Assembly (NCBI GenBank): GCA_029288805.1 | Contig: JARIGO010000024.1 | Location: 1 to 48,300 of the forward strand | Length of the DNA: 48,300 nt | DNA from: Candidatus Nomurabacteria bacterium | GTDB taxonomy: Bacteria; Patescibacteriota; Minisyncoccia; Phycocordibacterales; UBA9973 | Direction of reading: 5' to 3' | In this document: piece by piece, positions 24 to 44,560 of the stretch | Layout of the letters: each line of letters starts with the position of its first letter | How positions within the stretch are numbered: position 1 is the first letter of the stretch | Notes under the pieces: generated by a model | What the model was told of the DNA's origin: nothing | What the model saw: only the letters and a program-made list of their open reading frames with translations | Databases searched by the model: none | Made by a program: the position numbers and the translations under genes

Positions 24-111
24 CGCTGCCTCGCACGCCGCAGCCGCGGCATCGTTCTGGGAAAAATAAGTTCAATACGGTCTCAATCATAGGAAAAACC
101 AGTTTTTACGT

Positions 112-117
112 TATACT
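112..117 (+). promoter_or_regulatory. -10 element of the pilus operon
   Basis: TATACT lies 8 nt before the pilM ATG, which predicts a transcript with almost no 5' leader. No good -35 is visible. Confidence 0.5.
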
Positions 118-125
118 ATTCATAT

Positions 126-1256
126 ATGGATAGTATCCTATCTGGCATAAAGAATATCTTTTCCGGTATTTTGGGCAAAGCAGGCGATGACCGAGCGGTA
201 GGCATTGATATTGGTACCTCATCTATCAAAGTAGTGGAGCTTAAAAAAGAAGGAAGTCGCGTCGTGCTTGATACGTACGGAGCTTTGGCATTGGGACAAT
301 ATAATGAAGGCGGCAAGGTGGGGCAGGTTACCAACCTCAGCCCGGAAATTCTCACGAAGGCTTTGACGGATGTTCTAAAGGAAACAAACATTACCAGCAC
401 CAATGTCGTCTTTGGCATTCCTTCAATGTCATGCATTATTTTCATCTTGCAATTGCCAACAGAAATTGAGGAAAAGAATCTTCCGACTGTCATTCCAAAT
501 GAATCAAAGAAATTCATTCCGGTACCGATAGAGGACGTCACTTTGGATTGGTACGTCTTGCCTCGTCACGAGGATTCAGGCACGGAAGCTCGAGTGCTGT
601 CAGAAACAGGCGGCGCATCAAGCATGTCTATTTTGGTGGTGGCAACGCTCAATGAGACGCTTACCAAATACACCGACGTTATTCAAAAAGCAGGATTGCC
701 AATCGACAGTTTGGAAATCGAAGTCTTCAGTCATATTCGTTCTGTCATGACTCGTGAACTCTATCCAGTCATGATCGTTGATATTGGTGCTTCAAAAACA
801 AAACTCACTATCGTGGAACATGGCATTGTGGAAACATTTCGTTTGGTAAACCGCGGTGCCCAAGACATTACCTTGGCTATCAGTCGAGCATTGGAGCTTT
901 CATTTGAGCAGGCGGAGAATCTTAAAAAAGAGCATGGCTTGGTACCGGTAGCGGAATACCCTCGTATGGTTGAGCCGATAAAGACCCAGTTGGCTGATAT
1001 TTTCCAGGAAACCAATGCCACTATCTTGGCATTTGAAAAACGCTACAACAAAAACATCGGTAAGATCATTTTCACCGGCGGAGGTTCCATGATGCAAGGA
1101 TTGGTGGAATATGCAAAGCAAAGTTTTGCCGCAGAGCTCGCTATCGCTGACCCATTTGCCAAAGTTGAATCACCAGTATTCTTGGCCGGCGTCCTAAAAA
1201 ACACCGGACCGGAGTTTTCAGCTGCTATTGGATTAGCATTGCGAAAAATTCAATGA
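126..1256 (+). CDS. pilM: Type IV pilus assembly protein PilM
   Basis: PilM is the actin-like cytoplasmic ATPase of the type IV pilus alignment subcomplex; it binds the cytoplasmic N-terminus of PilN. The actin-fold phosphate loop is visible as GIDIGTSS at residues 26-33. A second phosphate motif (VDIGASKTKL) lies near residue 217 and the adenosine motif FTGGGSMMQG near 316. At 376 aa it is slightly longer than typical PilM (about 350 aa) because of an amphipathic N-terminal 20 residues. It is followed after 16 nt by a PilN-like gene and heads the whole pil cluster. ATG 126 was chosen because a TATACT box sits just upstream and the conserved domain starts soon after. The family assignment is firm. 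Confidence 0.95.
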   Translation: MDSILSGIKNIFSGILGKAGDDRAVGIDIGTSSIKVVELKKEGSRVVLDTYGALALGQYNEGGKVGQVTNLSPEILTKALTDVLKETNITSTNVVFGIPSMSCIIFILQLPTEIEEKNLPTVIPNESKKFIPVPIEDVTLDWYVLPRHEDSGTEARVLSETGGASSMSILVVATLNETLTKYTDVIQKAGLPIDSLEIEVFSHIRSVMTRELYPVMIVDIGASKTKLTIVEHGIVETFRLVNRGAQDITLAISRALELSFEQAENLKKEHGLVPVAEYPRMVEPIKTQLADIFQETNATILAFEKRYNKNIGKIIFTGGGSMMQGLVEYAKQSFAAELAIADPFAKVESPVFLAGVLKNTGPEFSAAIGLALRKIQ

Positions 1257-1272
1257 TATAATTTTTATATCA

Positions 1273-1956
1273 ATGGAACCAATTGTCTCAACATCGTTCA
1301 TTCCAAAACGCCCTGTCTCAACTGAACCGGTTGCTCCAAAGCAACGAAGTGGAGCAGTTGGGCTTTTGTCGTTCATTACTTTTATTATTGTCCTCGGTAC
1401 GGCTGTTGCATTTGTTGGTGTGTACCTGTATGGCAAGTCACTCGATTCACAAAAGGCACAATTGCAATCTCAGCTTGCTCAGGCAGAAAACGGATTGGGA
1501 AGCAGTTTCATTTCCGACATGCAACGTCTCAGCCAGCGCATTACCGGCGTGAAGACACTGATCAACAATCACGTTGTGGTCTCTCCGATCTTTGCAGCAT
1601 TACAGGCCACAACGCTGCAATCAGTACAGTATAAAAACTTTACATACCAATTTGTAACTGACCCTACTACTAGTGCAAAAATGGTGCAGGTAACAATTAC
1701 CGGCGTTGCCAAAAACTACGCGACACTTGCATTGCAGTCTGATGCGTACGCGAAGAGCAGCATCATTCGCAATCCTGTATTTTCAGACCTGACCGTTGAA
1801 GACAAGACACAAAACATCGATTTCAAACTGATCTTCAGCGTTGCCGCAAGCGATTTGTCATACACTACATTTATTAATAACCTTACCCAGCAGGGAGTGG
1901 TGCCAGCAACCGATGTAACCAATGGTGCCGTAACGCCTGCCACGGCTACACAATAA
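1273..1956 (+). CDS. pilN: PilN-like pilus assembly protein
   Basis: Bitopic inner-membrane protein of the PilMNO alignment complex. It has a cytoplasmic N-terminus of about 30 residues (proline and basic, where PilN would contact PilM) and one transmembrane segment at residues 30-53. A coiled-coil-like stretch (KAQLQSQLAQAENGL) leads into a C-terminal globular domain. The sequence itself is weakly conserved, as is usual for PilN; the call rests on topology, length (227 aa) and its place between pilM and pilO. A TATAAT at 1257-1262 overlaps the pilM stop and lies 10 nt before this ATG, so an internal promoter is possible. No Shine-Dalgarno is seen. Confidence 0.8.
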   Translation: MEPIVSTSFIPKRPVSTEPVAPKQRSGAVGLLSFITFIIVLGTAVAFVGVYLYGKSLDSQKAQLQSQLAQAENGLGSSFISDMQRLSQRITGVKTLINNHVVVSPIFAALQATTLQSVQYKNFTYQFVTDPTTSAKMVQVTITGVAKNYATLALQSDAYAKSSIIRNPVFSDLTVEDKTQNIDFKLIFSVAASDLSYTTFINNLTQQGVVPATDVTNGAVTPATATQ

Positions 1957-1957
1957 T

Positions 1958-2563
1958 ATGAGATATTTTTTCCTACTATTACTCATAGTCGCTTCAATCG
2001 GAATTTTCATTGCGATTATTATTCCTCGGTATGACGTTGTGAAGACACAGCGCACTGACATCGCCTCATATCAGGCAAACCTTGATACTGCAAAACAATT
2101 GCAGCAGTCTCGCGATTCGCTCATTGCTCAATACAACAATATCTCTCAGACAGATCTTTCCAACCTTCAAACATTGCTTCCTGACAGCGTCAACAATATT
2201 CGCCTCATCATTCAGATCGACTCATTGGCAACAAAGAACAACCTGTCTTCATTGCGAAACGTAGACTACAGTCCTGACCAGATCGCTGCTGCAACTCCGG
2301 GCACTGCTGGTGCCACAACCACCGCTGCCGCTACAACTGATGCCGCCACTGCCAATAAGCCATACGGTCAGTTTGTAATGTCATTCCAAACTTCCGGTTC
2401 ATATGCAAACTTCCTATCATTCCTTTCTGACTTGGAGCAAAACCTTCGCCTTGTTGATATTACTGACATTGAATTCACTCCAGACACCGCTGTCGGTACG
2501 CAAACTGCGGGAAGTACTATAGACTATAAGGTAACCATCCAAACCTATTGGTTAAAGAAATAA
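1958..2563 (+). CDS. pilO: PilO-like pilus assembly protein
   Basis: A 201-aa bitopic membrane protein with a transmembrane segment at residues 4-21, a coiled coil (around residues 30-65) and a C-terminal ferredoxin-like domain, which is the PilO/GspM plan. PilO heterodimerises with PilN in the periplasm or its equivalent to align the pilus. An Ala/Thr-rich low-complexity linker lies near residues 110-130. The ATG follows the pilN stop by 1 nt, and the next gene starts 1 nt after this one ends, so the genes are tightly coupled. No Shine-Dalgarno is visible. Confidence 0.8.
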   Translation: MRYFFLLLLIVASIGIFIAIIIPRYDVVKTQRTDIASYQANLDTAKQLQQSRDSLIAQYNNISQTDLSNLQTLLPDSVNNIRLIIQIDSLATKNNLSSLRNVDYSPDQIAAATPGTAGATTTAAATTDAATANKPYGQFVMSFQTSGSYANFLSFLSDLEQNLRLVDITDIEFTPDTAVGTQTAGSTIDYKVTIQTYWLKK

Positions 2564-2564
2564 T

Positions 2565-3233
2565 ATGAGTAAAACAGTTAAAATCTTTGCAATAGTTGTC
2601 GGTATAATCATTGTCTTGATTCTTGCTTTTACCTATCTTGGTAATAGCAGTAACACTGCAACCAGTTCTACTCCTGCTGATACAGGGCTTTCCAGTTCTG
2701 TGCCAATGCAAACTGCTGCTACTTCAACTGGTGAAGGGGCAGAAGCTGCGCCTATTAGCAATGCCAACTTCACAATACTGCTTTCTAGTATCAAGAGCAT
2801 CACGTTGGATACTTCCATCTTTTCTAACCCAGGGTACAAGGCATTGCGTGACAATCCGATATCGCTCGGTACTGCCGTTATCGGTCGTCAAAATCCATTT
2901 GCACCAATCGGTGTTGATAGTACGACTGGACAAAGTACCGGTACTCTAGCGGTACAGACATTAACGCCAACTAAGGTCACAGCAACCACTGCGCAGTTTG
3001 GTGCATTGGTCAGTGCAGGAAGCATGGCTGGCACGAGTGTGGTGTTTCAATACGGTACTGATGATACGCTGAGTTCAGCCACTGGTCCTGTTAATGTCAC
3101 ATCAACAGGCACTGCATTGTTTAATGTTACCGGTCTCACTCCGGCAACAACGTATTATGTCAACACGACTGCAGTACAAGGGTCGAATACTGCCACCGGT
3201 ACTATCATGACATTCACTACTCCAAAAAAGTAG
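2565..3233 (+). CDS. PilP-like pilus protein with fibronectin type III domain
   Basis: 222 aa with an N-terminal membrane anchor (residues 6-25), a Ser/Thr-rich linker, then a region ending in GRQNPFAPIG (near residue 110). That motif resembles the conserved motif seen in PilP/PulC-like partners of PilO. The C-terminal 90 residues (LTPTKVTATTAQFGA through TGLTPATTYYVNTTAV) look like a fibronectin type III or similar Ig-fold domain. Its slot after pilO and before pilB is where pilP is expected. The PilP role is inferred from position and the NPF motif; the FN3-like domain is the visible novelty and could bind a partner outside the membrane. Confidence 0.6.
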   Translation: MSKTVKIFAIVVGIIIVLILAFTYLGNSSNTATSSTPADTGLSSSVPMQTAATSTGEGAEAAPISNANFTILLSSIKSITLDTSIFSNPGYKALRDNPISLGTAVIGRQNPFAPIGVDSTTGQSTGTLAVQTLTPTKVTATTAQFGALVSAGSMAGTSVVFQYGTDDTLSSATGPVNVTSTGTALFNVTGLTPATTYYVNTTAVQGSNTATGTIMTFTTPKK

Positions 3234-3240
3234 CCGTACA

Positions 3241-4995
3241 ATGTTTCTCGACTTTCTTCTTTCCCAACACATCATTACGGAGTTCCAATACAATCGCGTA
3301 ATGGCTGAACTCGATCACGAGTATCATGGCGATATGACGGCAGCGCTTGTCGCTATTGGTCTGACTGAAGATGCGGTCACGCAAGCCAAGGCAACGTTTT
3401 ACCGATTGCCATACATCAAGCTTGATCCCAATAAGGTTTTTGCGGAAGCGGTGAAGTACATTCCTGAGGAAGCTGCCAAGCAATACAAGTTTATTCCTAT
3501 CGCATTCAGTGATGGGGTGCTTTCTATTGGGGTGACAGAACCGGAAAACATGGAGGCTATGAATGCCTTGCAGTTTATCTCTGTAAAACTTGGTGTGCCG
3601 TTCAAGATTTTCCTCATTTCTCCAAGTGATTTGGCAAAAGTTATGGAAGGGTACAAGGCTGCTACTACTCAGAATGAAGGTGACAAGGAAGTCAATGAAT
3701 TAAACAGTGAGCTTGAATTGGCCAATAAGCCCGATGCGCCGATTATCGGCACTGCTGGTGCAAAAAACTTTCTCAAAACTGACGGTCCGGTAAAGCAGGA
3801 GGAAAAAATCGTTGAAGATGCGCCGATTATTAAAATCGTAGCAATCATTATTGATCATGCTGTAGAAGGTGGTGCTTCCGATATTCACATTGAAAACAAT
3901 GGTAAGGCAGTGAATGTGCGATATCGTGTGGATGGAACGTTGCATACCACGCTGGTGCTGCCACTCAGTAGCTTCGACGGCATCATTGCTCGTATCAAGA
4001 TTTTGGCGAAACTGCGTTTGGATGAAAAGCGCAAGCCACAGGATGGAAGTTTCTCTACAACTGTTGATGGTAGAAAGATTGAGTTCCGTACTTCCACATT
4101 TCCTGCGTACTACGGTGAAAAGGTTGTGCTTCGTATTTTGGACTCTGAGCATGGTGTAAAAGGCTTGGATGACATTGATATGGCGCCCGAAGATTTGGCC
4201 ATGATCAAAGAGAGTCTTCGCAGACCGTATGGTTTGATTTTGATTTCCGGTCCGACCGGTTCAGGTAAAAGTACGACCTTGTACTCTATGCTTGGTCAGG
4301 TTGATCGCGAGGGAAGTAACGTTGTGTCGTTGGAAGATCCAGTGGAATATCAGATTCCGGGGGTGACACAGTCACAGGTCATGCCGGAAATTGGCTATAC
4401 CTTTGCTTCCGGTCTTCGTTCTATCCTGCGTCAGGACCCGAACATTATCATGGTGGGAGAAATACGTGATAAGGAAACTGCCGAGCTCGCCATTCAGGCA
4501 GCGCTCACTGGTCACATGGTGCTTTCTACTATCCACACCAACAGTGCTATTGGTATTATTCCGCGTTTGGTGGATATGGGTATCGATCCGTATTTGATCG
4601 CGCCAACGTTGGTCTTGGCCATTGCGCAACGCTTGGTGCACGGTGTGCATGAAAGTTCACGCCATCAGGTGCCAATGGATGAGGCGACAAAGGAATTCAT
4701 CGCCAAAGAGTTTGCTGACTATCCGGCTGATAAGTTCGCTGAATTGAAGCTTCCTACCGACACTATGTACGAAGTCCGTCCTTCTTCAGAAGCGCCGTCC
4801 GGGCTAAAAGGACGTGAAGCGGTTTTTGAAATGTTTACTGTTGATCGAGAATTACAGCAGATCATCTTGAAGAGTCCGACTGAACCTGAAATTTATAAGG
4901 CCGTTCGCGCCAGGGGTATGCTTACCATGAAAGAAGATGCGTTGCGCAAGGCACTTGAAGGGAAGGTGCCAATGCAGGAAGTGTTCGGTTTATAA
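3241..4995 (+). CDS. pilB: Type IV pilus extension ATPase PilB
   Basis: GspE/PilB-family hexameric ATPase that powers pilus polymerisation from the cytoplasmic side. It has an N-terminal MshEN-type domain (residues 1 to about 150), then the ATPase core with Walker A GPTGSGKST near residue 338, an Asp box, Walker B IIMVGEIRD near 402 and the His box STIHTNSA. At 584 aa it is of normal length. The tetracysteine zinc motif usually found late in PilB/GspE is absent; the equivalent stretch (around residues 470-520) has no cysteines. The start ATG follows the preceding stop by 7 nt. Function is well supported. Confidence 0.95.
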   Translation: MFLDFLLSQHIITEFQYNRVMAELDHEYHGDMTAALVAIGLTEDAVTQAKATFYRLPYIKLDPNKVFAEAVKYIPEEAAKQYKFIPIAFSDGVLSIGVTEPENMEAMNALQFISVKLGVPFKIFLISPSDLAKVMEGYKAATTQNEGDKEVNELNSELELANKPDAPIIGTAGAKNFLKTDGPVKQEEKIVEDAPIIKIVAIIIDHAVEGGASDIHIENNGKAVNVRYRVDGTLHTTLVLPLSSFDGIIARIKILAKLRLDEKRKPQDGSFSTTVDGRKIEFRTSTFPAYYGEKVVLRILDSEHGVKGLDDIDMAPEDLAMIKESLRRPYGLILISGPTGSGKSTTLYSMLGQVDREGSNVVSLEDPVEYQIPGVTQSQVMPEIGYTFASGLRSILRQDPNIIMVGEIRDKETAELAIQAALTGHMVLSTIHTNSAIGIIPRLVDMGIDPYLIAPTLVLAIAQRLVHGVHESSRHQVPMDEATKEFIAKEFADYPADKFAELKLPTDTMYEVRPSSEAPSGLKGREAVFEMFTVDRELQQIILKSPTEPEIYKAVRARGMLTMKEDALRKALEGKVPMQEVFGL

Positions 4996-5038
4996 AGAAA
5001 TAATAAAAAGGTACCTGGTACTATTTATAACTCCACGC

Positions 5039-5044
5039 TATACT
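5039..5044 (+). promoter_or_regulatory. -10 element before pilT
   Basis: TATACT lies 9 nt before the pilT ATG, suggesting an internal promoter with a leader of only a few nucleotides. Confidence 0.4.
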
Positions 5045-5053
5045 ACATACAAC

Positions 5054-6199
5054 ATGGATTATAAAAAATCATTTGAGGATCTCTTGGACATTTTGGTACG
5101 TGAAGGCGGTTCAGACCTTCACTTGGCTGCAGGTCGCGTACCGGCCGTGCGCGTAAACGGGGAATTGGTTTTTTTGCTCAATCATCCTGTAGAAAGCCAG
5201 GAAGATCTTTCCGGTATTCTCAAGGCTATTCTTACAGAAGATCACTATAAGCACTTCATGGAAGTGGAAGAGCTGGACTTTTCATACGAATATCATCCCG
5301 CGTCGGCTGCTGCACCGGTCAGCATGCCTACTATTGATCCTGCTACTGGCATCCCGCAGGCTCCCCAAGCTGCCGTTGATACAAAGCCTCTTCGTCTCCG
5401 TGGAAATGCATTCATTCAGCAAGGCAGAATTGGTTTAGTGTTTCGTCTCATTCCCGAGGTGAAGTCATTTGAAGAGTTGGGACTTCCACCGATTTTGGCA
5501 GAATTCGCTCGTAAGCGACAAGGGTTCTTTCTTGTGGTTGGTCCGGTAGGACAAGGTAAGTCAGCAACTATGGCTGCCATGGTTCGCCTCATCAACGAAG
5601 AACGTTCAGCACACATTTTGACTATTGAAGATCCTGTTGAGTATACCTATCCACAAGGCAAGTCCATTATTGACCAGCGTGAAGTCGGTATTGATACCGC
5701 AGACTTTGCCATTGCCTTGAAACAAGCCCTTCGTCAGGACGTGAATGCCATCTTGGTGGGAGAAATGCGCAATGCAGAAACCATCGGTACTGCAGTGACC
5801 GCTGCCGAAACTGGACACTTGGTGCTCTCAACACTTCACACCAACAACGCGTCACAAACTGTTGACCGTATCATCGACTCATTCCCGGCAGGGCAGCAGG
5901 ACCAGGTTCGCGTACAGCTTGCAAGTTCATTGCTTGGCATCTTCTCTCAGCGTTTGATCCCTCGCATTTCTGGAGGACGTATTCCTGCATATGAATTACT
6001 CATCAACAACAATGCCGTGGCAAACCTCATTCGTGAAAAACGCACTCATGAAATAGACATGGTCATTGAAACTGGCTCCGAGTCCGGCATGATCGACATG
6101 AATCGCTGTCTTATTGACTTGGTACGACGTGGGGAAATCACCATCGAAAACGCGTACACATACTCATTCAATCCTACTAACTTGCAGCGTCTTCTATAG
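5054..6199 (+). CDS. pilT: Pilus retraction ATPase PilT
   Basis: PilT/PilU-family ATPase (381 aa) that depolymerises pili for twitching and DNA uptake. N-terminal PAS-like domain signature is GGSDLHLAAGRVPAVRVNG. Walker A is GPVGQGKS (near residue 162; the usual form is GPTGSGKS), Walker B is ILVGEMRNAE (near 234) and the His box is STLHTNNA. An Ala/Pro-rich insertion (about residues 80-110) separates the two domains. I chose ATG 5054 over longer in-frame starts because homology begins at MDYKKSFEDLL and a TATACT box lies 9 nt upstream; longer versions would overlap pilB. Together with pilB it suggests dynamic, retractable pili. Confidence 0.93.
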   Translation: MDYKKSFEDLLDILVREGGSDLHLAAGRVPAVRVNGELVFLLNHPVESQEDLSGILKAILTEDHYKHFMEVEELDFSYEYHPASAAAPVSMPTIDPATGIPQAPQAAVDTKPLRLRGNAFIQQGRIGLVFRLIPEVKSFEELGLPPILAEFARKRQGFFLVVGPVGQGKSATMAAMVRLINEERSAHILTIEDPVEYTYPQGKSIIDQREVGIDTADFAIALKQALRQDVNAILVGEMRNAETIGTAVTAAETGHLVLSTLHTNNASQTVDRIIDSFPAGQQDQVRVQLASSLLGIFSQRLIPRISGGRIPAYELLINNNAVANLIREKRTHEIDMVIETGSESGMIDMNRCLIDLVRRGEITIENAYTYSFNPTNLQRLL

Positions 6200-6202
6200 C
6201 AT

Positions 6203-7408
6203 ATGAATTACGTTTACACTGCTATCACTGATAAGGGAGAAAAACGCGAAGGAATGATTGAGGCAGTCAATCAGGAACTTGCCATTGCCGGACTACAACG
6301 CCGTGGCTTAATCGTTACCTCCATCAAGGACGAAGAGCATGCCAAGAAATGGTTTGAGATCACATTGTTTGAGCACGTACCAATGAAGGACGTGGTGATC
6401 TTTTCTCGTCAGGTATCGACATTGTTTGAAGCCCAGGTTTCAGCCTTGAAAGCCTTCACATTGCTTTCAGAAAACACTGAAAACAAGCTCTTGGGCCGAA
6501 AGCTCAGTACTATCGTTTCTGATTTGCAGGCCGGCTCATCAATTGCCGGAGCCATGGCGAAACAAAGCGATGTCTTTTCTGACTTCTATGTGAACATGGT
6601 CAAGGCCGGGGAAGAGTCCGGTAAGCTTACTCAGGTTTTCTCATTCTTGGCTGATTATTTGGACCGTCAGTATGCTCTTACTACCAAGACAAAAAACGCA
6701 TTCGTATATCCGATTTTCGTTATCAGCGTCTTTTTCATCGTGATGATCTTGATGTTCACGGTCATTGTGCCGAAGCTGTCAGACATTATTACGCAGTCTG
6801 GTCAGCCTATCCCAGTCTATACGCAAATAGTCTTTGCCATCAGTAATATTTTTATAAATTACGGTATCTTCATGCTGATCTTCGTGGTGCTGGCAGTAGC
6901 TGCTCTCATTTACATGGCTCGTACTCCAAAGGGCAAACAGGTTGTGGATGACATCAAGTTCGGTTTTCCTGTTGTAGGCAACCTATACAGCAAGCTCTAT
7001 CTCGCTCGTATTGCCGACAACATGGATACCATGCTTTCTTCCGGTATTCCTATTGTGCGTGCCATTGAAATTACCGCTCAAGTGGTGGGTAATAAGCGTT
7101 ACCAGGGTATCATGATGAATACCATGGAAGGAGTGAAGGCAGGTAAGTCCTTTTCGCAAGCATTGGCAGAACATCCGGAAATACCAAAGCTCATGCCACA
7201 GATTATTCGCGTTGGTGAGGAAACAGGTTCAGTTGGCTCTATCTTGAAAATGTTGGCGAAGTTTTACAATCGTGAAGTGGACCAGGCTATTGATACGCTC
7301 GTCGGTTTGATTGAGCCGTTTATGATCGTCTTCCTTGGTATTGGTGTTGGTATTCTGCTTGTTTCAATCCTTGTGCCGATTTATAACATTGCTGGTGGTA
7401 TTCAGTAA
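6203..7408 (+). CDS. pilC: Type IV pilus platform protein PilC
   Basis: GspF/PilC inner-membrane platform protein (401 aa) with two repeated GspF domains (conserved FSRQVSTLFEAQV near residue 68 and LYLARIADNMDTMLSSGIP near 270). Transmembrane segments lie near residues 165-190, 215-240 and 370-395. It couples the PilB/PilT motors to pilin insertion. It starts 3 nt after pilT and ends upstream of the first pilin, completing the core machine genes. Confidence 0.94.
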   Translation: MNYVYTAITDKGEKREGMIEAVNQELAIAGLQRRGLIVTSIKDEEHAKKWFEITLFEHVPMKDVVIFSRQVSTLFEAQVSALKAFTLLSENTENKLLGRKLSTIVSDLQAGSSIAGAMAKQSDVFSDFYVNMVKAGEESGKLTQVFSFLADYLDRQYALTTKTKNAFVYPIFVISVFFIVMILMFTVIVPKLSDIITQSGQPIPVYTQIVFAISNIFINYGIFMLIFVVLAVAALIYMARTPKGKQVVDDIKFGFPVVGNLYSKLYLARIADNMDTMLSSGIPIVRAIEITAQVVGNKRYQGIMMNTMEGVKAGKSFSQALAEHPEIPKLMPQIIRVGEETGSVGSILKMLAKFYNREVDQAIDTLVGLIEPFMIVFLGIGVGILLVSILVPIYNIAGGIQ

Positions 7409-7412
7409 GTGG

Positions 7413-7440
7413 TATACTTTTAGCATTACATTTTTGTAAT
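7413..7440 (+). promoter_or_regulatory. Pilin 1 promoter with 5'-end hairpin
   Basis: An extended -10 (TGG then TATACT, 7413-7418) predicts a start near 7425. Exactly there a 6-bp hairpin begins: ATTACA 7425-7430, loop TTTT, TGTAAT 7435-7440. The leader to the pilin ATG is about 50 nt. Confidence 0.55.
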
Positions 7441-7473
7441 ACTTACATTATTAATAAGATCCTTGGAATTTTT

Positions 7474-7941
7474 ATGAAGAAAACACTACAACGTGGTTTC
7501 ACTCTTATCGAACTTTTGGTGGTTATCGCCATCATCGGTATTCTCGCATCCGTGATCTTGGCATCGCTGAACTCAGCGCGTGCAAAGGGAACTGACGCAG
7601 CAGTGAAATCCGACCTTGAAAATGCTCGCCCTCAGGCGGAAATTTATTATGATGGTAAGGGCAATACATACCTTTCTGCATGTTCTACCGCTACATCGGC
7701 AACTCCTGTTGGTGGTATCAATACCATGATGACAGACGCTGCTAGTAAAAACGGTACTACGCTCGTAACAACGCTTGCAACCGCTGGAACAGCAACAACC
7801 ACAGTATGTCACGACAGTGCTACTGGCTGGGCAGCCGCTGCTCCTACGAAGTCAGTGACCGGCTACTGGTGCGTGGACTCAACAGGAAAGGCGGAGCAGA
7901 CAACATCCGTGCTTGCTGCTAGTTCTGTAACGTGTCCATAA
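7474..7941 (+). CDS. Type IV pilin, copy 1
   Basis: Major-pilin-like protein (155 aa) with a class III signal peptide: MKKTLQRG, cleavage before F, then the hydrophobic N-terminal helix FTLIELLVVIAIIGILASV with Glu at mature position 5. Two cysteines in the first half (SACST, VCHDS) and two near the end (YWCVD, VTCP) could form disulfides. It has its own promoter and a leader hairpin, is followed by a strong terminator, and is 80-90% similar to the next gene. It is the likely PilD substrate and pilus fibre subunit. Confidence 0.93.
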   Translation: MKKTLQRGFTLIELLVVIAIIGILASVILASLNSARAKGTDAAVKSDLENARPQAEIYYDGKGNTYLSACSTATSATPVGGINTMMTDAASKNGTTLVTTLATAGTATTTVCHDSATGWAAAAPTKSVTGYWCVDSTGKAEQTTSVLAASSVTCP

Positions 7942-7965
7942 GCGCTACAAAAGATTAGATATCCA

Positions 7966-8004
7966 CATAAAACCTCCTGAAATAGGGAGGTTTTATGCTT
8001 TTAT
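7966..8004 (+). terminator. Intrinsic terminator after pilin 1
   Basis: 12-bp perfect stem (7966-7977 with 7986-7997) around an 8-nt loop, with T-rich flanks. It separates the two pilin transcripts. Confidence 0.8.
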
Positions 8005-8019
8005 TAGGCCTTATCATGC

Positions 8020-8048
8020 TATAATTTGTCTGTTACAAGTCATTGTAA
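8020..8048 (+). promoter_or_regulatory. Pilin 2 promoter with 5'-end hairpin
   Basis: An extended -10 (TGC then TATAAT, 8020-8025) is followed at the predicted start by a 6-bp hairpin: TTACAA 8033-8038, a 4-nt loop, TTGTAA 8043-8048. This is the same design as pilin 1 with a different sequence. Confidence 0.55.
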
Positions 8049-8092
8049 TAATCGATTATTATTTATTAATTAAACGTTCTAAAACTATTTCT

Positions 8093-8557
8093 ATGAAGAA
8101 AGCTTTAAACAAAGGTTTCACCCTGATCGAACTTTTGGTGGTTATCGCCATCATCGGTATTTTGGCATCAGTTATTCTTGCGTCTCTTAACTCAGCTCGT
8201 GCCAAGGGTACTGATGCTGCCGTAAAGTCAGACCTTGAAAATGCTCGCCCTCAGGCGGAAATCTTCTACGATGCAAGTAACAACTCATATGCTGGTGCTT
8301 GTACCGCTGCAACAAGTGCAACTCCAGGTGGTATCAACACCATGATGAGTGATGCTGCTAGTAAGATCGGCGGAACACTTGTGACAACATTTGCAACGGC
8401 TGGTACGTCTACTACTGTTGTATGTCATGACTCAGCTGCCGGCTGGGCAGCCGCTGCTCCTACGAAGTCAGTGACCGGCTACTGGTGCGTGGACTCAACA
8501 GGAAAGGCGGAGCAGACAACTACTGCTCTTGCTGCTTCATCAATTACTTGTCCATAA
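8093..8557 (+). CDS. Type IV pilin, copy 2
   Basis: Second pilin (154 aa), with class III signal peptide MKKALNKG before FTLIELL and the same four-cysteine layout as copy 1. The 80 nt at 8441-8520 are identical to 7825-7904 in copy 1, although other parts differ at many synonymous sites. It has its own promoter and a strong terminator, so the ratio of the two pilins may be set independently. Whether one copy is the major subunit cannot be told from sequence. Confidence 0.93.
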   Translation: MKKALNKGFTLIELLVVIAIIGILASVILASLNSARAKGTDAAVKSDLENARPQAEIFYDASNNSYAGACTAATSATPGGINTMMSDAASKIGGTLVTTFATAGTSTTVVCHDSAAGWAAAAPTKSVTGYWCVDSTGKAEQTTTALAASSITCP

Positions 8558-8576
8558 TCTTAGGCAGGTAAGTGCA

Positions 8577-8613
8577 AAAAGAGCCGATCACTGCGTGATC
8601 GGCTCTTTTGCTA
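8577..8613 (+). terminator. Intrinsic terminator after pilin 2
   Basis: 15-bp perfect stem (8577-8591 with 8595-8609) and a 3-nt loop, with A/T flanks of bidirectional type. Confidence 0.85.
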
Positions 8614-8636
8614 TTTTGTTTCACTCTAATACTTGT

Positions 8637-8642
8637 TACAAT
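8637..8642 (+). promoter_or_regulatory. Leaderless-type promoter of pilD
   Basis: TACAAT preceded by TGT (extended -10), exactly 6 nt before the ATG. Confidence 0.5.
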
Positions 8643-8648
8643 GTATGC

Positions 8649-9440
8649 ATGTTACTTCTTCCGATTTTTATATTCATTCTCGGACTGATCATCGGAAGCT
8701 TTTTGAATGTCGTGATCCTGCGCATCAACACCGGCCGCAGTATTGCCAAGGGCCGCTCCATCTGTTTTCGCTGCAGTAAGGAACTTTCCTGGTACGAACT
8801 CATTCCTGTATTTTCATTTCTTGGATTGCGAGGGAAGTGCAAGACGTGCAAGGCTCCCATCTCATTTCAGTATCCGTTAGTGGAGCTTGTCACCGCTATT
8901 ACCTTCACTGTTCTCTATACTACTGCTATCACCAGTTTTGGTTTTAGTCTGATGGCGCTGCTAAGCTTCCTATTTTCAGCAACAGTGGCTTCGCTGCTTA
9001 TCGTTATATTTGTGTATGACATCAAACACACCATCATTCCTGACATGATCGTGTATCTGTTCATCATCCTTTCTCTCGTTTCAATATTATGGCAGGCATT
9101 AACCATTCCTCATTTCGGCATTCTTAATGCATTGTTTGCGGGAGTATTTGTAGCGTTGCCATTTTTCTTGTTGTGGGCATTTTCCAAAGGACGCTTTATG
9201 GGCTTTGGTGATGTGAAGCTTGCGCTTGGCATGGGATGGCTGTTGGGATTGGTTGGCGGCTACAGTGCCGTACTCTTCTCGTTTTGGATCGGCGGCATTG
9301 TGGGCATTATTTTATTGGCATTGTCCCGCAAGTATTCCATGCGCTCTCAAATCCCATTTGCTCCATTTCTCATCGCAGGAACATTTATCGTTGGCGTATG
9401 TGGCATTACTATTCTTTCATTGTTCCAAATATGGTCATAA
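8649..9440 (+). CDS. pilD: Prepilin peptidase PilD
   Basis: Membrane aspartyl protease that cleaves class III signal peptides of pilins and may N-methylate the new N-terminus. The N-terminal domain has the GSFLNVVI motif and two CxxC pairs (CFRCS and CKTCK). The catalytic Asp residues are in the FVYDIKHTIIPD and GFGDVKLALG motifs. It has about seven to eight membrane segments in 263 aa. I chose ATG 8649 because the hydrophobic prepilin-peptidase start MLLLPIFIFILGLIIGSFLN begins there and an extended -10 lies 6 nt upstream; the longer frame runs back into the terminator. It overlaps the next gene by 10 nt. Confidence 0.95.
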   Translation: MLLLPIFIFILGLIIGSFLNVVILRINTGRSIAKGRSICFRCSKELSWYELIPVFSFLGLRGKCKTCKAPISFQYPLVELVTAITFTVLYTTAITSFGFSLMALLSFLFSATVASLLIVIFVYDIKHTIIPDMIVYLFIILSLVSILWQALTIPHFGILNALFAGVFVALPFFLLWAFSKGRFMGFGDVKLALGMGWLLGLVGGYSAVLFSFWIGGIVGIILLALSRKYSMRSQIPFAPFLIAGTFIVGVCGITILSLFQIWS

Positions 9441-10114
9441 GAAATGCACAATCAGGCTTTACCCTTGTCGAAATGCTGATAGTCATCGCTATTGTGGCTG
9501 TCATGGCAACCGTACTGCTCTTTAATTATTCCGACTTCAGTACGGGGGTAGGGATTCGTAACCTGGCAGAACAAATGGGACTCAGCATTCGTGAAGCGCA
9601 AAGTTATGCAACCAGTGTTCGCAGTATTAACGGTACCGCTGGTATCTATAGTGATACGTACCCTGCCTATGGCATCAGTTTTTCCGTAAACGGTACCGCT
9701 CAACAAATGTACAGCCCTAGCACTACTAACTTCGCATTATTTGTCGATGTTTCTCCTAGCAACTTAGGAACAGATAACGACAAATTGTACGGTAATGACG
9801 GCATATGCGGCTCACCGACAAATGATGGTCATCAGGAGTGCGTTGAAAACTTTGCATTGGCCGGAGGCAATACTATCACATCACTGTGTACCGATGCGCC
9901 AACTCAAAATAGCTGCTTCACTTCAACCAATCCTGGCACGGTGAACGTGGTATTTCATCGTCCAAATCCTGACGCATACATTTGTGTAGTGAATAGTACA
10001 GGGGATAGCTGTATTGATCAGCAGGCGTCATACTTAAAAGTGACGGTGCAATCCATTAAAGGTCTGCAGCGTACGGTAACAATCTGGAATACTGGCCAGA
10101 TAAGTGTCAATTAA
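9431..10114 (+). CDS. Minor pilin / pseudopilin, GspH-like
   Basis: 227-aa prepilin with signal MVIRNAQSG before FTLVEMLIVIAIVAVMATVLL. The remainder has GspH/FimT character (AEQMGLSIREAQSYATSVR after the helix). Several cysteines lie in the C-terminal half. The true start is ATG 9431 inside the pilD 3' end, because this is where a normal class III leader begins. It is probably one of the minor pilins that prime the pilus tip, together with the next three genes. Confidence 0.85.
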   Translation: MVIRNAQSGFTLVEMLIVIAIVAVMATVLLFNYSDFSTGVGIRNLAEQMGLSIREAQSYATSVRSINGTAGIYSDTYPAYGISFSVNGTAQQMYSPSTTNFALFVDVSPSNLGTDNDKLYGNDGICGSPTNDGHQECVENFALAGGNTITSLCTDAPTQNSCFTSTNPGTVNVVFHRPNPDAYICVVNSTGDSCIDQQASYLKVTVQSIKGLQRTVTIWNTGQISVN

Positions 10115-10115
10115 T

Positions 10116-10709
10116 ATGAAGAATCAAGACGGATTTACATTAGTAGAATTATTGGTATCGCTGGCATTGTTCAGTATCGTTGTCATTGCCGCCATTGGAT
10201 CCTTGTATACTATTAATGAAGCTTCTCAACGCGTCACTGCCATGCGTACGGTGCTGGATAACTTGAACTTTGCCACTGAATCCATGACACGCACTATCCG
10301 TACCGGAGATACTATTGTATGTGGAGGGGTGGAATCAAGCTTTGGCAGTGCTGGTGAGGCAAACTGTCCGCTTGGTAGCAGCGATGGTTCAGATACGATT
10401 TCTCTCAACAGTACTATTGATGGCAGTGGCATTGAATACCGTTGGCGTCAGGATACTGTTACCAATAACCGAGAAATACAGAAGTGTACGCTTACTGACA
10501 GCGGTCAGCTCGATACTGATAAGTGTGTTGCCATTACTGATCCTCAGATCGACATTACAAACTTTAAGTTCTACGTTGACGGGGCTGATGCCAATGACGG
10601 CAAGCAGCCTGGTGTCAGTATCTTCATGCAGGGTGTTGCCAATGCCGGACCAAATAACGTTCAGCCATTTGCCATCCAAACATACGTATCGCAACGTGCG
10701 GGAGAATAA
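10116..10709 (+). CDS. Minor pilin / pseudopilin, PilW/GspJ-like
   Basis: 197 aa with the class III signal MKNQDG before FTLVELLVSLALFSIVVIAAIG, then a PilW/GspJ-style region (LDNLNFATESMTRTIRTGD) and an all-beta C-terminal half with four cysteines. ATG 10116 gives a standard short leader; an in-frame ATG at 10104 would overlap the previous stop and adds MSIN. It is part of the minor-pilin run and its promoter is probably shared. Confidence 0.85.
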   Translation: MKNQDGFTLVELLVSLALFSIVVIAAIGSLYTINEASQRVTAMRTVLDNLNFATESMTRTIRTGDTIVCGGVESSFGSAGEANCPLGSSDGSDTISLNSTIDGSGIEYRWRQDTVTNNREIQKCTLTDSGQLDTDKCVAITDPQIDITNFKFYVDGADANDGKQPGVSIFMQGVANAGPNNVQPFAIQTYVSQRAGE

Positions 10710-10712
10710 TAT

Positions 10713-11291
10713 ATGAATAAACAAGCAGGATTTACATTAATAGAAACGCTGATTGCCATCTTTATCTTGACGCTTACCATTGGCGGTCTTTTGACACTCG
10801 CTGCAAATGGCTATTATTCCGTTCGGTATTCTCGCAACCAAATTACTGCTAACGACCTCATCGAGGAATCATTGGAATACTTTCACAACAGTCGCGACAG
10901 TGCGGCACAGCAAGGTGTTGGCTGGTCTCAGTGGACTGCAGATTTTAATGTTTCTGATGACGGTACAGTGCTGGGTGGTTCCACTCCTCAGGGGTGCTAT
11001 GCTGATTCAGGCTGTACGGTTGATCTGTATACCACTAACAACCATGTTAAGGCATGCGACAGTACCTGTCCGTTTATTTATTACACGACGAATGGATACT
11101 ATGGATATGACAGTTCCTCATACCCGCTATCGATTGATGCTGGTACTCCTACCCTTACCACATATAAGCGCACCATTACCATGCACATGAATGGACCAGA
11201 CCAGCTTATCGTTACGTCGACAGTGACATGGATGAATGGCAATACTAGCAAGAGTGCTTCACAGTCCATCTTACTAACCAATTGGAAATAA
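10713..11291 (+). CDS. Minor pilin / pseudopilin, PilV/GspI-like
   Basis: 192 aa with the class III leader MNKQAG before FTLIETLIAIFILTLTIGGLL. This matches the PilV/GspI pattern, with Glu-5 followed by Thr and a short variable body with a cysteine cluster (CYADSGC, CDSTC). It lies 3 nt after the previous gene. A weak GGGAG lies upstream of the ATG, one of the few purine-rich sites in the cluster. Confidence 0.85.
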   Translation: MNKQAGFTLIETLIAIFILTLTIGGLLTLAANGYYSVRYSRNQITANDLIEESLEYFHNSRDSAAQQGVGWSQWTADFNVSDDGTVLGGSTPQGCYADSGCTVDLYTTNNHVKACDSTCPFIYYTTNGYYGYDSSSYPLSIDAGTPTLTTYKRTITMHMNGPDQLIVTSTVTWMNGNTSKSASQSILLTNWK

Positions 11292-11292
11292 C

Positions 11293-13787
<2,495 letters not shown>

Positions 13788-40449: not shown

Positions 40450-40500
40450 AAAAAGCCCCGTAACGGGGCTTTGGCGCTTATGAGTTTACTCATACGCGTT
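40450..40500. terminator. Double hairpin terminator of the convergent genes
   Basis: A 9-bp stem (40452-40460 with 40464-40472) and a second inverted repeat (about 40475-40498). Read on the minus strand the first ends in a T7 run, so it best serves the helicase. Confidence 0.8.
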
Positions 40501-42837
40501 TTAGTTTTTAACTGTAAGGAACTCATTCCATCCAGGAAAGTTTTTATAAAACTGATTTGGGTGCACTGGAAACTTTTTGTCTTCACGGAACCTTTTTTTA
40601 TAATCACCACTAGTCCTAATGCCTAGTGCTAAGGCAGCTTTTGACGCTTCCTCCCAAGTTTTATAGAAAACTTTCTTTTCTCTACCGAGAAACTTATCCC
40701 AACCCGGAAAATCTTTATAGGTTTTCTGAGGGGTCGATGATAGCCTCGGATCTTTCCTAAAACTTCTTTTAAATTCCTCCCTGCTAACATTTATCCCTAA
40801 TGCCCGTGCGGCACTGCTGGCCTCTTGCCATGTAGGATAGAAGTCTTCATCTTTTAAGCCAAAGAATATTCTGGCTCCCGGATAATCTTCATAGTAAGCA
40901 CCAGGATTGACAGGTAAGCGTGGGTCAATAGATTTAGCAACTTTTTCAAGTTCTATACCCATAGTAATCCCATTTTTTATTACAACAGCAGACGCCTCTT
41001 GCCATGTTGGATAAATATCTACTCCGAAAAACTTGTCCCATCCGAGCCAATCGGAATAAAACGAATCAGGATTTGAAGGAAGACGGTTATCCTCCTTGTA
41101 CCTTTGTGTGTACTCACGACCGGTTTTTATACTCAGTCTTTTAGCTGCTTCCATTGCGTCCTGCAGGGTAGGATAGAAGTCCTCTTCGCGGATTCCAAGA
41201 AATTTCCAGAAGCCCGGAAAATCTTTGTAATAGGAATGCGGTGTTGCAGGTAGACGGGGATCAAGTTTCCTTTTTTCTGCATACTGCACAGCAGTCTTCG
41301 GGCCCAAAGCTTTTGCCGCCTCAGATGCCTCTTGCCAGGTTTTATAGAAGTTTTTTTCTGCATATCCGAAGAAAATTGGACTGCCAGGAAAATCTTCATA
41401 ATACCTTGCAGGGTAACTTACAAGTTTAGGATCCTCCTTAAATCTTTCTCTGTACATTGTGTCACCAGTTATGCCAAGTTTTTTTACAGTCTCAGCAGCC
41501 TCTTGCCATGTTGCATAGTATCCAGATCTAATGATTTTAATCGCCTCAATAAGCGGTACGATTTTTTCCTTAAACTCTACAGTTTCAATATTTAGCACAA
41601 AGGGGCCAGGTGTATCCCTCTTTTTGCGTGAGGTAAAGTGTGATGCTACGCCTTGTAGGGTATCCACAAATAAACCAGGTTTCGTACTTGCTTCATATTT
41701 TATGCCGAACGACTCGGTCACAGATGGAGCATAAGTGCCGCTCTGTGTCTTTACCTTTGACCAAAGCTCATACACCTGCATGATGCGGTCGCAGTTTGCG
41801 ACAAAATCTAGTACTCTTACAACCTTCTTCCCTTCATATAGCCGGCACCCCCTCATTAGTTGTTGGTAGAACACGGTAAGAGAGTCAGTTGCTCGTAGAA
41901 ATACCACCATGTTTATCTGAGGAACATCAAGTGACTCATTGAACATGTCAACGGAAATCAATATCTTGAATATGCCTTGTCTGAACAGCTCCAATCTTGT
42001 TTTTCGTTCCGCTTTGGGAATTTTACTATGGATTGGGATTGATCCAGGAAGCATTTCCGCAAGAAGTTCTGCGTGATCAGTCGACGAAACATAAATCATG
42101 ACGCAAGGATTTTCAATCTCATCAATGTTTGATTGAATGATCTTTACTATCTCCTCGTCGCGTTTCGGCACAAACACTGTGCGATTGAGGTGGTTAATGC
42201 TTAACCGGCCTCTCTGTGTCTGTAGTTTCTTGAGTGACCCTATTTCGTCAGACATGACTCTGTAGTCGACGGGGCACAGTAGGTTTCTGCATAATGCATC
42301 AACGAACGGCAGCGAATACACTGGCTCCCCATATAGCTCTCGGATATCGCGCCCATCCATACGATCGGATGTAGCAGTGACTGCGAGGATGAAATGGGGC
42401 ATAAAATAGGTGACAACGTTCTCATGCGTCGGGGCCTTTGAATGGTGACTTTCGTCAACAACAATGATATCGAATTCCTCAGGATGAAACATATCGAGGT
42501 TTTCTCTCATTGTCTGAAAGCTAGCAAGAAGGATATTCACTTGGTGAGAAACTTTCTTATCACCAGTGAAATATCCGTAAGTAGCATTCGGCAGAACCTT
42601 GATGTAATCAGTTTCCGCCTGCTCAAGATTTTCAGTCAAATGGCTTAAGAACAAGCAGCGTTTCTCGTGGTAAGTTTCGAACCTATGCCTCACATATAAG
42701 GCACTTGTAATAGTCTTTCCAAGGCCGCCCGCTTTTACCACAAGAGCAGTGTCTTGATGTTTTTCAGCTTTTTTAAGTACATCCAAGCACTCTTGCTGGT
42801 AGGGAAAAGGCACTATGGCCGGGGCAGTAAGTATCAT
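40501..42837 (-). CDS. SF2 helicase with six C-terminal integrase-type repeats
   Basis: 778 aa, minus strand, ATG 42837, preceded by AAGGAGGT, a full Shine-Dalgarno. Residues 1 to about 420 are an SF2 helicase core: Walker A KAGGLGKTITS, motif II VVDESHHSK, motif III AVTATSDR, motif VI QQLMRGCRLYEGKK. Residues 440-778 are six tandem repeats of 54-58 aa (starting at 440, 497, 554, 608, 666, 724). Their core reads Y-x-TWQEAS-x-AA-x-LGI, then DPRLP, then YYKDFPGW-x-x-FLG. This resembles the phage-integrase repeat unit (INT_rpt type), probably DNA-binding. Divergent from a sigma factor gene with which it shares an operator. Confidence 0.88.
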   Translation of the reverse strand: MILTAPAIVPFPYQQECLDVLKKAEKHQDTALVVKAGGLGKTITSALYVRHRFETYHEKRCLFLSHLTENLEQAETDYIKVLPNATYGYFTGDKKVSHQVNILLASFQTMRENLDMFHPEEFDIIVVDESHHSKAPTHENVVTYFMPHFILAVTATSDRMDGRDIRELYGEPVYSLPFVDALCRNLLCPVDYRVMSDEIGSLKKLQTQRGRLSINHLNRTVFVPKRDEEIVKIIQSNIDEIENPCVMIYVSSTDHAELLAEMLPGSIPIHSKIPKAERKTRLELFRQGIFKILISVDMFNESLDVPQINMVVFLRATDSLTVFYQQLMRGCRLYEGKKVVRVLDFVANCDRIMQVYELWSKVKTQSGTYAPSVTESFGIKYEASTKPGLFVDTLQGVASHFTSRKKRDTPGPFVLNIETVEFKEKIVPLIEAIKIIRSGYYATWQEAAETVKKLGITGDTMYRERFKEDPKLVSYPARYYEDFPGSPIFFGYAEKNFYKTWQEASEAAKALGPKTAVQYAEKRKLDPRLPATPHSYYKDFPGFWKFLGIREEDFYPTLQDAMEAAKRLSIKTGREYTQRYKEDNRLPSNPDSFYSDWLGWDKFFGVDIYPTWQEASAVVIKNGITMGIELEKVAKSIDPRLPVNPGAYYEDYPGARIFFGLKDEDFYPTWQEASSAARALGINVSREEFKRSFRKDPRLSSTPQKTYKDFPGWDKFLGREKKVFYKTWEEASKAALALGIRTSGDYKKRFREDKKFPVHPNQFYKNFPGWNEFLTVKN
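40504..41520 (-). repeat. Six tandem protein repeats within the helicase gene
   Basis: The coding repeats of about 165-174 nt are diverged in DNA but conserved in protein. Repeat 6 is at the C-terminus and ends the protein; repeat 4 has the most divergent helix. Confidence 0.8.
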
Positions 42838-42841
42838 TTGT

Positions 42842-42849
42842 GACCTCCT
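42842..42849 (-). promoter_or_regulatory. Perfect Shine-Dalgarno of the repeat-helicase
   Basis: AAGGAGGT on the minus strand, a few nt before ATG 42837; the only full-length site in the window. Confidence 0.75.
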
Positions 42850-42895
42850 TTTAAATTGTTAATTTTCTTTTTTATAATTAAAGCATATTTAACAT

Positions 42896-42921
42896 AAAAG
42901 TCAATTAATGTATTGACTTTT
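42896..42921. promoter_or_regulatory. Symmetric divergent promoter/operator
   Basis: A perfect 10-bp inverted repeat (AAAAGTCAAT, 6-nt spacer, ATTGACTTTT). Each arm contains a TTGACT -35 hexamer pointing outward. On the plus strand TAATTT with a TGA extension (42935-42940) is a fair -10; the minus -10 is less clear. One regulator bound here could control both genes. Confidence 0.6.
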
Positions 42922-42957
42922 TAAAAAATCATGATAATTTAAAGAAAACTTTAAAAA

Positions 42958-44526
42958 ATGAAGACAGAAAGAAATTTAACAGGGACTACAAGCCCTCTTC
43001 CACCTCAAATGGGTGAGCTGACTAAGCGATCTCGTAAATTACTAAATCATGTTCTTCAAGTAAGGAACATTACAACTGAGCAGATCACCGAATTTATCCC
43101 TCGGGGTACCAAAGGTATATCGCTTACCAACGCCATTGTAGCTATCACACAATTCTTCACCGATCAGGGCATATTCATAACATACACTACTCCTAGTAAG
43201 ATCTTGCTAAGAATCGCTCACTTAAGATCTGTCGCTGTTCCATCGGATCAAAAAACAGTTGAAGCCGAGATTGCCCCTATGAAGATAATCGACAGGCCCA
43301 CTGTGATTAACCAGTTACAAACGCTCAGGTTTCAGTTAGGGGCAACTCCAACTTATTCCGATATTAAAAAATCCTCTGACGAAGGGTTAATAGTGTCGGT
43401 CTCAACGATCTTGAAAATGTTTGGAAGCTATGAGAACTTGTTAATCGATGCGGGTATTAATCCTAATTCATATAAGTATGATAGGGAGAGCTTAGTCGAT
43501 GACTTAAGGTTCATTTATTTGGAACTGAACAGGGTACCGTCCCCTGAGGATATCATTGCATATTCCGAGAAAGGTCTAACCGCGGAGTTTGGGGCTTTTC
43601 AGAAAATGTTTAAAGGAATGGAGGATATTCAGGCAATAATTGACCTATATGTCATGCCTGGGATTGAGGTACCTAACACAAAGGAAAAAGCTCTGGGCAG
43701 ACCTCGAAAGAACCCTCTTTTACTCACCAAGGATCAGGAAAAGATCGTTGCATTAAAAATCGCTACAGGCGATGACAAGGCACGAGAAGATTTTGCAAAA
43801 GCGAACCTTCGCCTCGTGTACTGGGTTGCAAAGAAGTTTTTCGGCGACTTTGTAGACAATTCTGAGTTCGGCATAACCATTGACGACCTGTTTCAGGAAG
43901 GGTATCGGGGACTGCTTAAGGCGATTGATAAGTTTGACCCAACTATGGATTATAAATTCTCAACTTACGCAGTCTGGTGGATAAGGCAGACTATAGAAAG
44001 AAGCTTTAATCACACCAGCGAGACGGTCCGCATCCCTGTCCATATGATCGAAAAAATGAGGAAGTACAATAAGTTTGTTGCCAAATATTTTCGTAGAAAT
44101 GGCGTTCCTCCTTATGACTCTGTAGTGGAGGCGGAACTTGGGCTAAGCAGTGAAGAGTTGCACGAGATATTGAACACTACTCAAATCGTTTCAATTAAAT
44201 TGGAAGGAAGCTCTTCTGCTGAAGAAGACACTCCTGCCCCAATTGATGTTATCGAAAGCGATATGTCAACACCACCCGATGAAGCGGTTGATCTGTCATT
44301 ACTTAAGGAAAAAATCAAACAGATTATTTCAAAAATTGGTTTATCGGAAAGAGACTATGAAATGCTCTCGTTAAGATTCGGTCTTGATGGAAAAGGTGAG
44401 CATACCCTTGAAGAGATCGGTGAAAAATTCAACCTGACTCGGGAAAGGGTACGGCAAATTAACGAAAAAATCCTTCTTAAAATGCGATCCCACTTTTTGT
44501 CTGCAGATCTAAAAATGTTCTTCTAG
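42958..44526 (+). CDS. Sigma-70-family factor with N-terminal homing-associated repeats
   Basis: 522 aa. Residues 250-522 are a complete sigma factor: region 1.2-like (LTKDQEKIVALKIATGDD), region 2 (NLRLVYWVAKKFF, DDLFQEGYRGLLKAIDKFDP, YKFSTYAVWWIRQTIERSF), region 3 (VRIPVHMIEKM) and region 4 (LSLRFGLDGKGEHTLEEIGE, then LTRERVRQINEK). Residues 116-168 and 178-230 are two repeats of the homing-endonuclease-associated HNH_repeat type (LRFQLGATPTYSDIKK then KMFGSYENLLIDAGI). Residues 1-100 are helical and unassigned. It is much longer in front than a normal housekeeping factor of this group. No Shine-Dalgarno; the promoter is shared with the helicase. Confidence 0.88.
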   Translation: MKTERNLTGTTSPLPPQMGELTKRSRKLLNHVLQVRNITTEQITEFIPRGTKGISLTNAIVAITQFFTDQGIFITYTTPSKILLRIAHLRSVAVPSDQKTVEAEIAPMKIIDRPTVINQLQTLRFQLGATPTYSDIKKSSDEGLIVSVSTILKMFGSYENLLIDAGINPNSYKYDRESLVDDLRFIYLELNRVPSPEDIIAYSEKGLTAEFGAFQKMFKGMEDIQAIIDLYVMPGIEVPNTKEKALGRPRKNPLLLTKDQEKIVALKIATGDDKAREDFAKANLRLVYWVAKKFFGDFVDNSEFGITIDDLFQEGYRGLLKAIDKFDPTMDYKFSTYAVWWIRQTIERSFNHTSETVRIPVHMIEKMRKYNKFVAKYFRRNGVPPYDSVVEAELGLSSEELHEILNTTQIVSIKLEGSSSAEEDTPAPIDVIESDMSTPPDEAVDLSLLKEKIKQIISKIGLSERDYEMLSLRFGLDGKGEHTLEEIGEKFNLTRERVRQINEKILLKMRSHFLSADLKMFF

Positions 44527-44532
44527 TAATTT

Positions 44533-44560
44533 AGCCCCTGGATATCCAGGGGCTTTTTAT
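44533..44560 (+). terminator. Palindromic terminator after the sigma factor
   Basis: Perfect 22-nt palindrome (44533-44554) followed by T5. Confidence 0.85.

Follow-up and report, generated by a model that had tools for sequence, protein, structure and literature searches.

Gene composition of the locus

The window analyzed here is a 48,300-nucleotide stretch of DNA from a Candidatus Nomurabacteria bacterium (assembly GCA_029288805.1, contig JARIGO010000024.1), which corresponds to contig C15 of a 0.68 Mb genome (G000) of 96% completeness. Our subject is a pair of its genes that lie back-to-back with 120 bp between them and encode an SF2 (superfamily 2) helicase and an extra sigma factor of the sigma-70 family (Table 1). 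The flanking genes are ordinary (NUDIX, VanZ, and sortase). No defence genes were found beside the pair, and neither an integrase nor a composition shift was found around it.

The helicase comprises 778 amino acids. Pfam detected the ResIII (E 7.6e-28) and Helicase_C (E 2.5e-15) domains, followed by six separate stretches of INT_rpt (E 8.6e-40), which bears out the six integrase-type repeats named in the first-pass annotation, a reading made from the letters of the DNA. Walker A, DExH, and motif VI (QQLMRGCR, with both arginines retained) are present, as in SF2 ATPases of the ResIII type. The nearest solved structures by sequence profile were 7clg (274 bits), RadD, an HsdR, and XPB; Foldseek identifies 7clg as SauUSI. 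In the AlphaFold model, the core reached a predicted local distance difference test score (pLDDT) of about 90, while the repeats appeared as helical units with values of about 60-70. Foldseek ranked SauUSI and RadD at the top, and VIA-align over the core gave Z 28.8 for RadD and about 27 for XPB of TFIIH. Since other SF2 proteins followed closely, fold by itself cannot settle the function. With 95.1 bits against the NCBIfam equivalog cut-off of 720 bits, the protein is not RadD. Nor is it a SauUSI-like type IV restriction enzyme, as Pfam found no nuclease or modified-base recognition domain beside the ATPase. The SauUSI ATPase is reported to power translocation along DNA (PMC7913695). Judged by its homology to SauUSI and XPB, the window ATPase most likely moves along double-stranded DNA.

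The sigma factor comprises 522 amino acids. Its regions 2 (Sigma70_r2, E 2.7e-15, 56 bits) and 4 (Sigma70_r4, E 1.1e-11, 44 bits) exceeded the Pfam cut-offs, and the region 2.3 aromatic motif FSTYAVWWIRQ and the region 4.2 motif TRERVRQI are retained, which places the protein in the sigma-70 family (group 1/2-like). Region 3 was weak (E 0.005, below the cut-off). As the first-pass annotation had proposed, two repeats precede the sigma regions; they match HNH_repeat at E 4.1e-10, above the curated cut-off. The protein is not the housekeeping RpoD, for it scored 212.8 bits against a cut-off of 555, and a separate rpoD, 38% identical over the core, lies on contig C18. At its N-terminus is a domain that is also found in two partner sigma factors described below (G014 and G523). 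Comparison with region 1.1 gave a weak match (hhalign P 0.0024, probability 12%), and the G523 homologue reached E 6.7e-5 in a search of three sequences only. These values are suggestive of a region 1.1-like domain, but only suggestive. No ortholog of the sigma factor was found in 11 further genomes from the genus, and its N-terminal part was matched in one of 146 other genomes of the family (G014). Sigma region-2 genes numbered 2-7 per genome.

Table 1. Features of the helicase-sigma unit and their positions in the window
Feature	Position	Strand	Basis
SF2 double-stranded DNA translocase-like ATPase (SauUSI/RadD/XPB type) with C-terminal INT_rpt array	40501..42837	-	Pfam, PDB sequence profile, AlphaFold model and fold search
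SF2 ATPase core, amino acids 7-406	41620..42819	-	Profile of 10 relatives, conserved motifs
Six INT_rpt units, amino acids 440-777, probable DNA-targeting array	40507..41520	-	PF14882, six stretches
Extra sigma factor, sigma-70 family, RpoD-derived	42958..44526	+	Pfam, NCBIfam; separate rpoD at G000:C18
N-terminal domain, amino acids 16-88, common to G014 and G523 sigma factors, tentatively region 1.1-like	43003..43221	+	Weak hhalign match
Two HNH_repeat units, amino acids 113-170 and 176-235	43294..43662	+	PF18780 over cut-off
Sigma core, regions 2-4, retaining FSTYAVWWIRQ and TRERVRQI	43720..44523	+	Pfam, motif reading
Palindrome AAAGTCAAT-N6-ATTGACTTT, two back-to-back TTGACT -35 elements	42897..42920	.	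Genome scan; same in G014 pair
Sigma-side -10-like hexamer TAATTT, preceded by TG, 16 nucleotides from TTGACT	42935..42940	+	Read from sequence; weak consensus match
Helicase-side -10-like hexamer TTTAAT, preceded by TGC, 16 nucleotides from TTGACT	42877..42882	-	Read from sequence
Terminator-like hairpin 3' of helicase gene	40452..40472	-
Terminator-like hairpin 3' of sigma gene	44533..44554	+

Recurrence of the pairing and gene fusions

A survey of gene neighbours in related genomes, as the first-pass annotation had suggested, revealed that the pairing recurs, up to the point of gene fusion. We searched for the helicase clade with a profile built from ten ATPase relatives under strict thresholds, and every neighbourhood was read. 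Members turned up in 11 of 380 genomes sampled across the phylum, in 8 of 384 from the class to which the window belongs, and in 19 of 393 from a different class. Besides the window, an extra sigma gene adjoins the helicase gene or lies one gene off in five genomes (G014, G219, G523, G863, and G1155). The window, G014, and G523 have the two genes in divergent orientation, as does G863, where an RNase III gene lies in between. In G219, the sigma gene is directly downstream of the helicase gene; in G1155, it is upstream, separated by one gene (L225, 9151-10143) for an uncharacterized 331-amino-acid protein, possibly a third component. At L062 (7414-8466), the genes for RNase III and the paired sigma factor flank one for a protein of ~350 amino acids that begins with sigma region 4, and same-length proteins with sigma region-4 matches occurred in all searched genomes of the genus. 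A related arrangement was observed in a Saccharibacteria genome (L070), where the gene immediately upstream of that for an HNH_repeat helicase encodes a 234-amino-acid protein (1778-2479) consisting of sigma region 4 and the C-terminal domain of the RNA polymerase alpha subunit (alpha-CTD). In G275 and G235/G576 (L185, L216, and L184; two unrelated lineages), the helicase gene adjoins housekeeping dnaG-rpoD; because this rpoD is the housekeeping gene, these loci were left out of the extra-sigma pairs.

By chance, about 0.36 neighbouring sigma genes would be expected in 43 loci, and the approximate probability of at least five is 3e-5. This estimate assumes ~1 gene per kb, excludes the window, includes two rpoD neighbours, and leaves the fusions uncounted; with only three extra sigma genes counted, P is 0.005. 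The paired helicases are scattered over the helicase tree, where well-supported branches force at least four changes, and the window and G014 helicases are sisters (100/99). The partner sigma factors are long-branched and do not form a single clade (approximately unbiased test, p 0.015). Thus, RpoD-type sigma factors were likely recruited repeatedly, although the long branches weaken this inference.

Two relatives carry both functions in one chain. The fusion protein of G182 (contig C18, 1026 amino acids) consists of sigma regions 1.2, 2, 3, and 4, followed by ResIII/Helicase_C and four HNH_repeats. That of G981 (contig C3, 866 amino acids) has ResIII/Helicase_C first, followed by sigma region 4, its region 2 being degenerate. 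No stop codon interrupts either reading frame, and each genome has a normal rpoD besides the fusion gene. The opposite domain order argues for two independent fusion events. Taken together, the fusions in both orders and the recurrent adjacency make it very probable that, in some lineages, this ATPase and a sigma factor act together. A further link was found in the G219 operon, where the last 67 residues of the helicase are 60% identical to those of the sigma factor (E 1e-22). On inspection, this common C-terminal domain is a probable winged helix, and its presence on both proteins suggests that they are directed to the same place.

The accessory parts vary from genome to genome. The G014 pair (contig C1) consists of a 564-amino-acid sigma factor and an 804-amino-acid INT_rpt helicase, which are 30% and 45% identical, respectively, to their counterparts in the window; its sigma factor lacks HNH_repeats and has a C-terminal DnaA DNA-binding domain (Bac_DnaA_C, E 3.4e-22). 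The C-terminal modules of the clade helicases are, depending on the genome, INT_rpt, HNH_repeat, DUF4379 treble-clef zinc fingers, or helix-turn-helix domains, and the partner sigma factors outside the window either bear a DnaA or winged-helix-like domain or have no such addition. We therefore read the repeats as exchangeable modules for DNA targeting, attached to a core that consists of the sigma factor and the translocase. The integrase- and homing-type repeats on which the first-pass annotation had laid stress are thus present in both proteins of the window, but they appear to be secondary.

The shared promoter region

The intergenic region contains a palindrome that forms two back-to-back -35 elements, each followed by a -10-like hexamer (Table 1). 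The palindrome occurs exactly once in the genome (0.68 Mb), where the closest other site differs from it by three mismatches. Since lone ATTGACTTT arms are also present elsewhere in the window, the unusual feature is the back-to-back layout. The G014 pair, from a different genus, has a palindrome with the same arms and the same spacing between its genes, and TGC-TAAAAT at the same spacing on the helicase side; no copies beyond these two pairs were found in 1.23 Mb of non-viral DNA. This conservation supports the earlier suggestion that the symmetric promoter serves joint control, and the divergent promoter may be under the control of the pair itself. About 18 nucleotides separate the -10-like hexamer on the sigma side from the start codon after it, which has no clear Shine-Dalgarno sequence, in contrast to the helicase gene with its AGGAGG; the leader of the sigma gene is apparently very short (42940-42958). 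A terminator-like hairpin directly after each gene closes the unit, which is thus self-contained.

Proposed role of the pair and alternative explanations

We propose that the pair is one working unit, in which an extra sigma factor and a partner SF2 motor provide site-targeted, ATP-driven auxiliary transcription initiation; we regard the case for this reading as evenly balanced. The DNA-binding modules on both proteins would bring the sigma factor and the ATPase to particular DNA sites, where the sigma factor would recruit RNA polymerase. The ATPase would then spend ATP on remodelling the promoter complex, either by feeding DNA into the polymerase or twisting it in, or by clearing roadblocks, and transcription would result from promoters that are poorly served by the housekeeping sigma factor. 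We favour remodelling of the initiation complex at promoters marked by the modules, since both the melting motif and the -35 motif are retained in the window sigma factor and the ATPase is a member of the double-stranded DNA motors (PMC7913695). The link in function between sigma factor and motor has good support; contact between the two proteins in unfused pairs and a promoter-opening role of the motor are inferred. We put forward tentatively, at just short of an even chance, that such pairs represent an undescribed class of motor-coupled sigma-70 factors in Patescibacteria, with an XPB/SauUSI-like translocase as partner, twice fused, with swappable sequence-reading modules and ATP-driven, site-specific initiation.

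Several observations weigh against this proposal. About 30 of the 44 clade loci have no neighbouring sigma gene, which indicates that the ATPase is able to work without a linked sigma factor, and the window genome itself encodes another clade member with INT_rpt (L060, 3270-5276 on contig C17, 669 amino acids), which no sigma gene adjoins. Having lost much of region 2, the sigma part of the G981 fusion may not open promoters. A genome search with the palindrome returned the pair's own promoter only and thus no regulon, and the AlphaFold model of the sigma factor, built from three sequences, was poor (pLDDT 44.7) and unusable. Moreover, promoter opening by sigma-70 holoenzymes takes place without ATP (PMC5505868), so that it is not evident why a motor should be needed.

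The first-pass annotation had considered roles in defence, competence, or mobile-element regulation, none of which received direct support. In a response to foreign DNA, a nuclease-less SauUSI-like translocase would patrol DNA by means of its repeats, and the sigma factor would switch on or hijack transcription upon invasion. The closest solved relative is indeed a type IV restriction enzyme, the PADLOC profiles for type IV restriction enzymes and MzaA match the two cores, the sigma factor is patchily distributed, and the G014 pair lies near a serine recombinase and a terminase-like gene (annotated by eye). However, these defence-model matches are limited to the generic ATPase or sigma core, the flanks of the window pair are ordinary, and neither this pair nor most paired loci contain a nuclease, methylase, or other effector; we consider this role unlikely. 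The pair could also be cargo of an integrating element and serve its expression or replication. The same patchiness would fit, as would the naming of the repeat families, originally after integrases and homing enzymes, but neither an integrase nor a composition shift was seen around the unit, and scans of 2.9 million viral contigs and of plasmids yielded no close relatives, the best matches having 25-32% and about 35% identity, respectively; we judge this explanation improbable. None of the helicases in the viral contigs is paired with a repeat-bearing sigma factor, and phage records match the cores only, so that a viral origin was rejected.

The motor might instead clear or recycle polymerase in the manner of Mfd or RapA, stripping stalled complexes, with the sigma part as a mere RNA polymerase adaptor. 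Such a role appears quite unlikely to us. It agrees with the alignment of the SF2 core with Mfd on RNA polymerase (Z 24.4, a general SF2 similarity), with the intact region 4 beside a degenerate region 2 in the G981 fusion, and with the Saccharibacteria locus, where region 4 and the alpha-CTD are purely polymerase- or DNA-binding parts. Yet the promoter-melting motif is retained in the sigma factors of the window, G182, and G523, and a sigma factor normally departs from RNA polymerase during elongation. That the genes are unrelated accessory neighbours, divergent by accident, would suit the many unpaired helicases, but the two opposite-order fusions, the common domain, the conserved palindrome, and a recurrence beyond chance contradict it, and we hold it to be highly improbable.

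Comparison with known systems

SauUSI, an ATP-dependent type IV enzyme of Staphylococcus aureus, has the closest SF2 ATPase and combines target recognition with ATP-driven DNA movement (PMC7913695). SauUSI also includes parts for nuclease activity and methyl recognition, whereas in the window protein the ATPase is followed by repeats alone and the partner is a sigma factor. The ATPase-core fold is shared with RadD, XPB of TFIIH, and archaeal XPB. XPB is a double-stranded DNA motor in transcription initiation, which the window module would loosely resemble. The C-terminal parts of RadD and XPB differ, however, and the partner in the window, if our reading is right, is a bacterial sigma-70-family factor rather than RNA polymerase II factors.

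The nearest precedent, yet a different one, is the MZA anti-phage system, which includes a sigma-factor gene (PMC9523054). Here too, a sigma-70-family factor (MzaA) is linked to ATPase genes, and the NCBIfam and PADLOC MzaA models match the window sigma core. The match amounts to 210 of 800 bits and covers generic sigma regions only, the neighbours are NUDIX and VanZ, and none of the other MZA genes (mzaB-E) was recognized near the window pair; membership was therefore rejected. The partner of the window sigma factor is, moreover, an SF2 ResIII ATPase.

Sigma-54 and its AAA+ enhancer-binding proteins likewise use ATP-driven aid in promoter opening (PMC5505868). Both components are unrelated to those of the window, which combines a sigma-70-type factor with an SF2 ATPase, in some relatives in one chain. 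Mfd, RapA, and HelD are ATP-driven motors that act on RNA polymerase; they belong to other motor subfamilies than the window helicase, and we know of no case in which one of them is fused to a sigma factor or encoded together with it. To our knowledge, sigma-54 is also the only bacterial sigma factor that requires an ATPase. If the proposal holds, the pair would represent a second, unrelated way to power bacterial initiation and a bacterial counterpart of TFIIH. No published pairing or fusion of a sigma-70 factor with an SF2 ATPase was found in the open literature searched, which excludes most subscription journals. The pairing would offer a way into the study of gene regulation in Patescibacteria, a large and mostly uncultured group, and the fusions, as single-chain proteins, are directly expressible and testable.

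Further observations

A truncated copy of the helicase with 45% identity (L076/L077, 5992-6783) was detected in metagenome-assembled genomes labelled Clostridiales/Lachnospiraceae, where it overlaps a serine recombinase gene; transfer or a binning error are possible explanations. The window also contains a type IV pilus gene cluster at about 1-11800, including tandem, near-identical pilin genes at 7474-7938 and 8093-8554.

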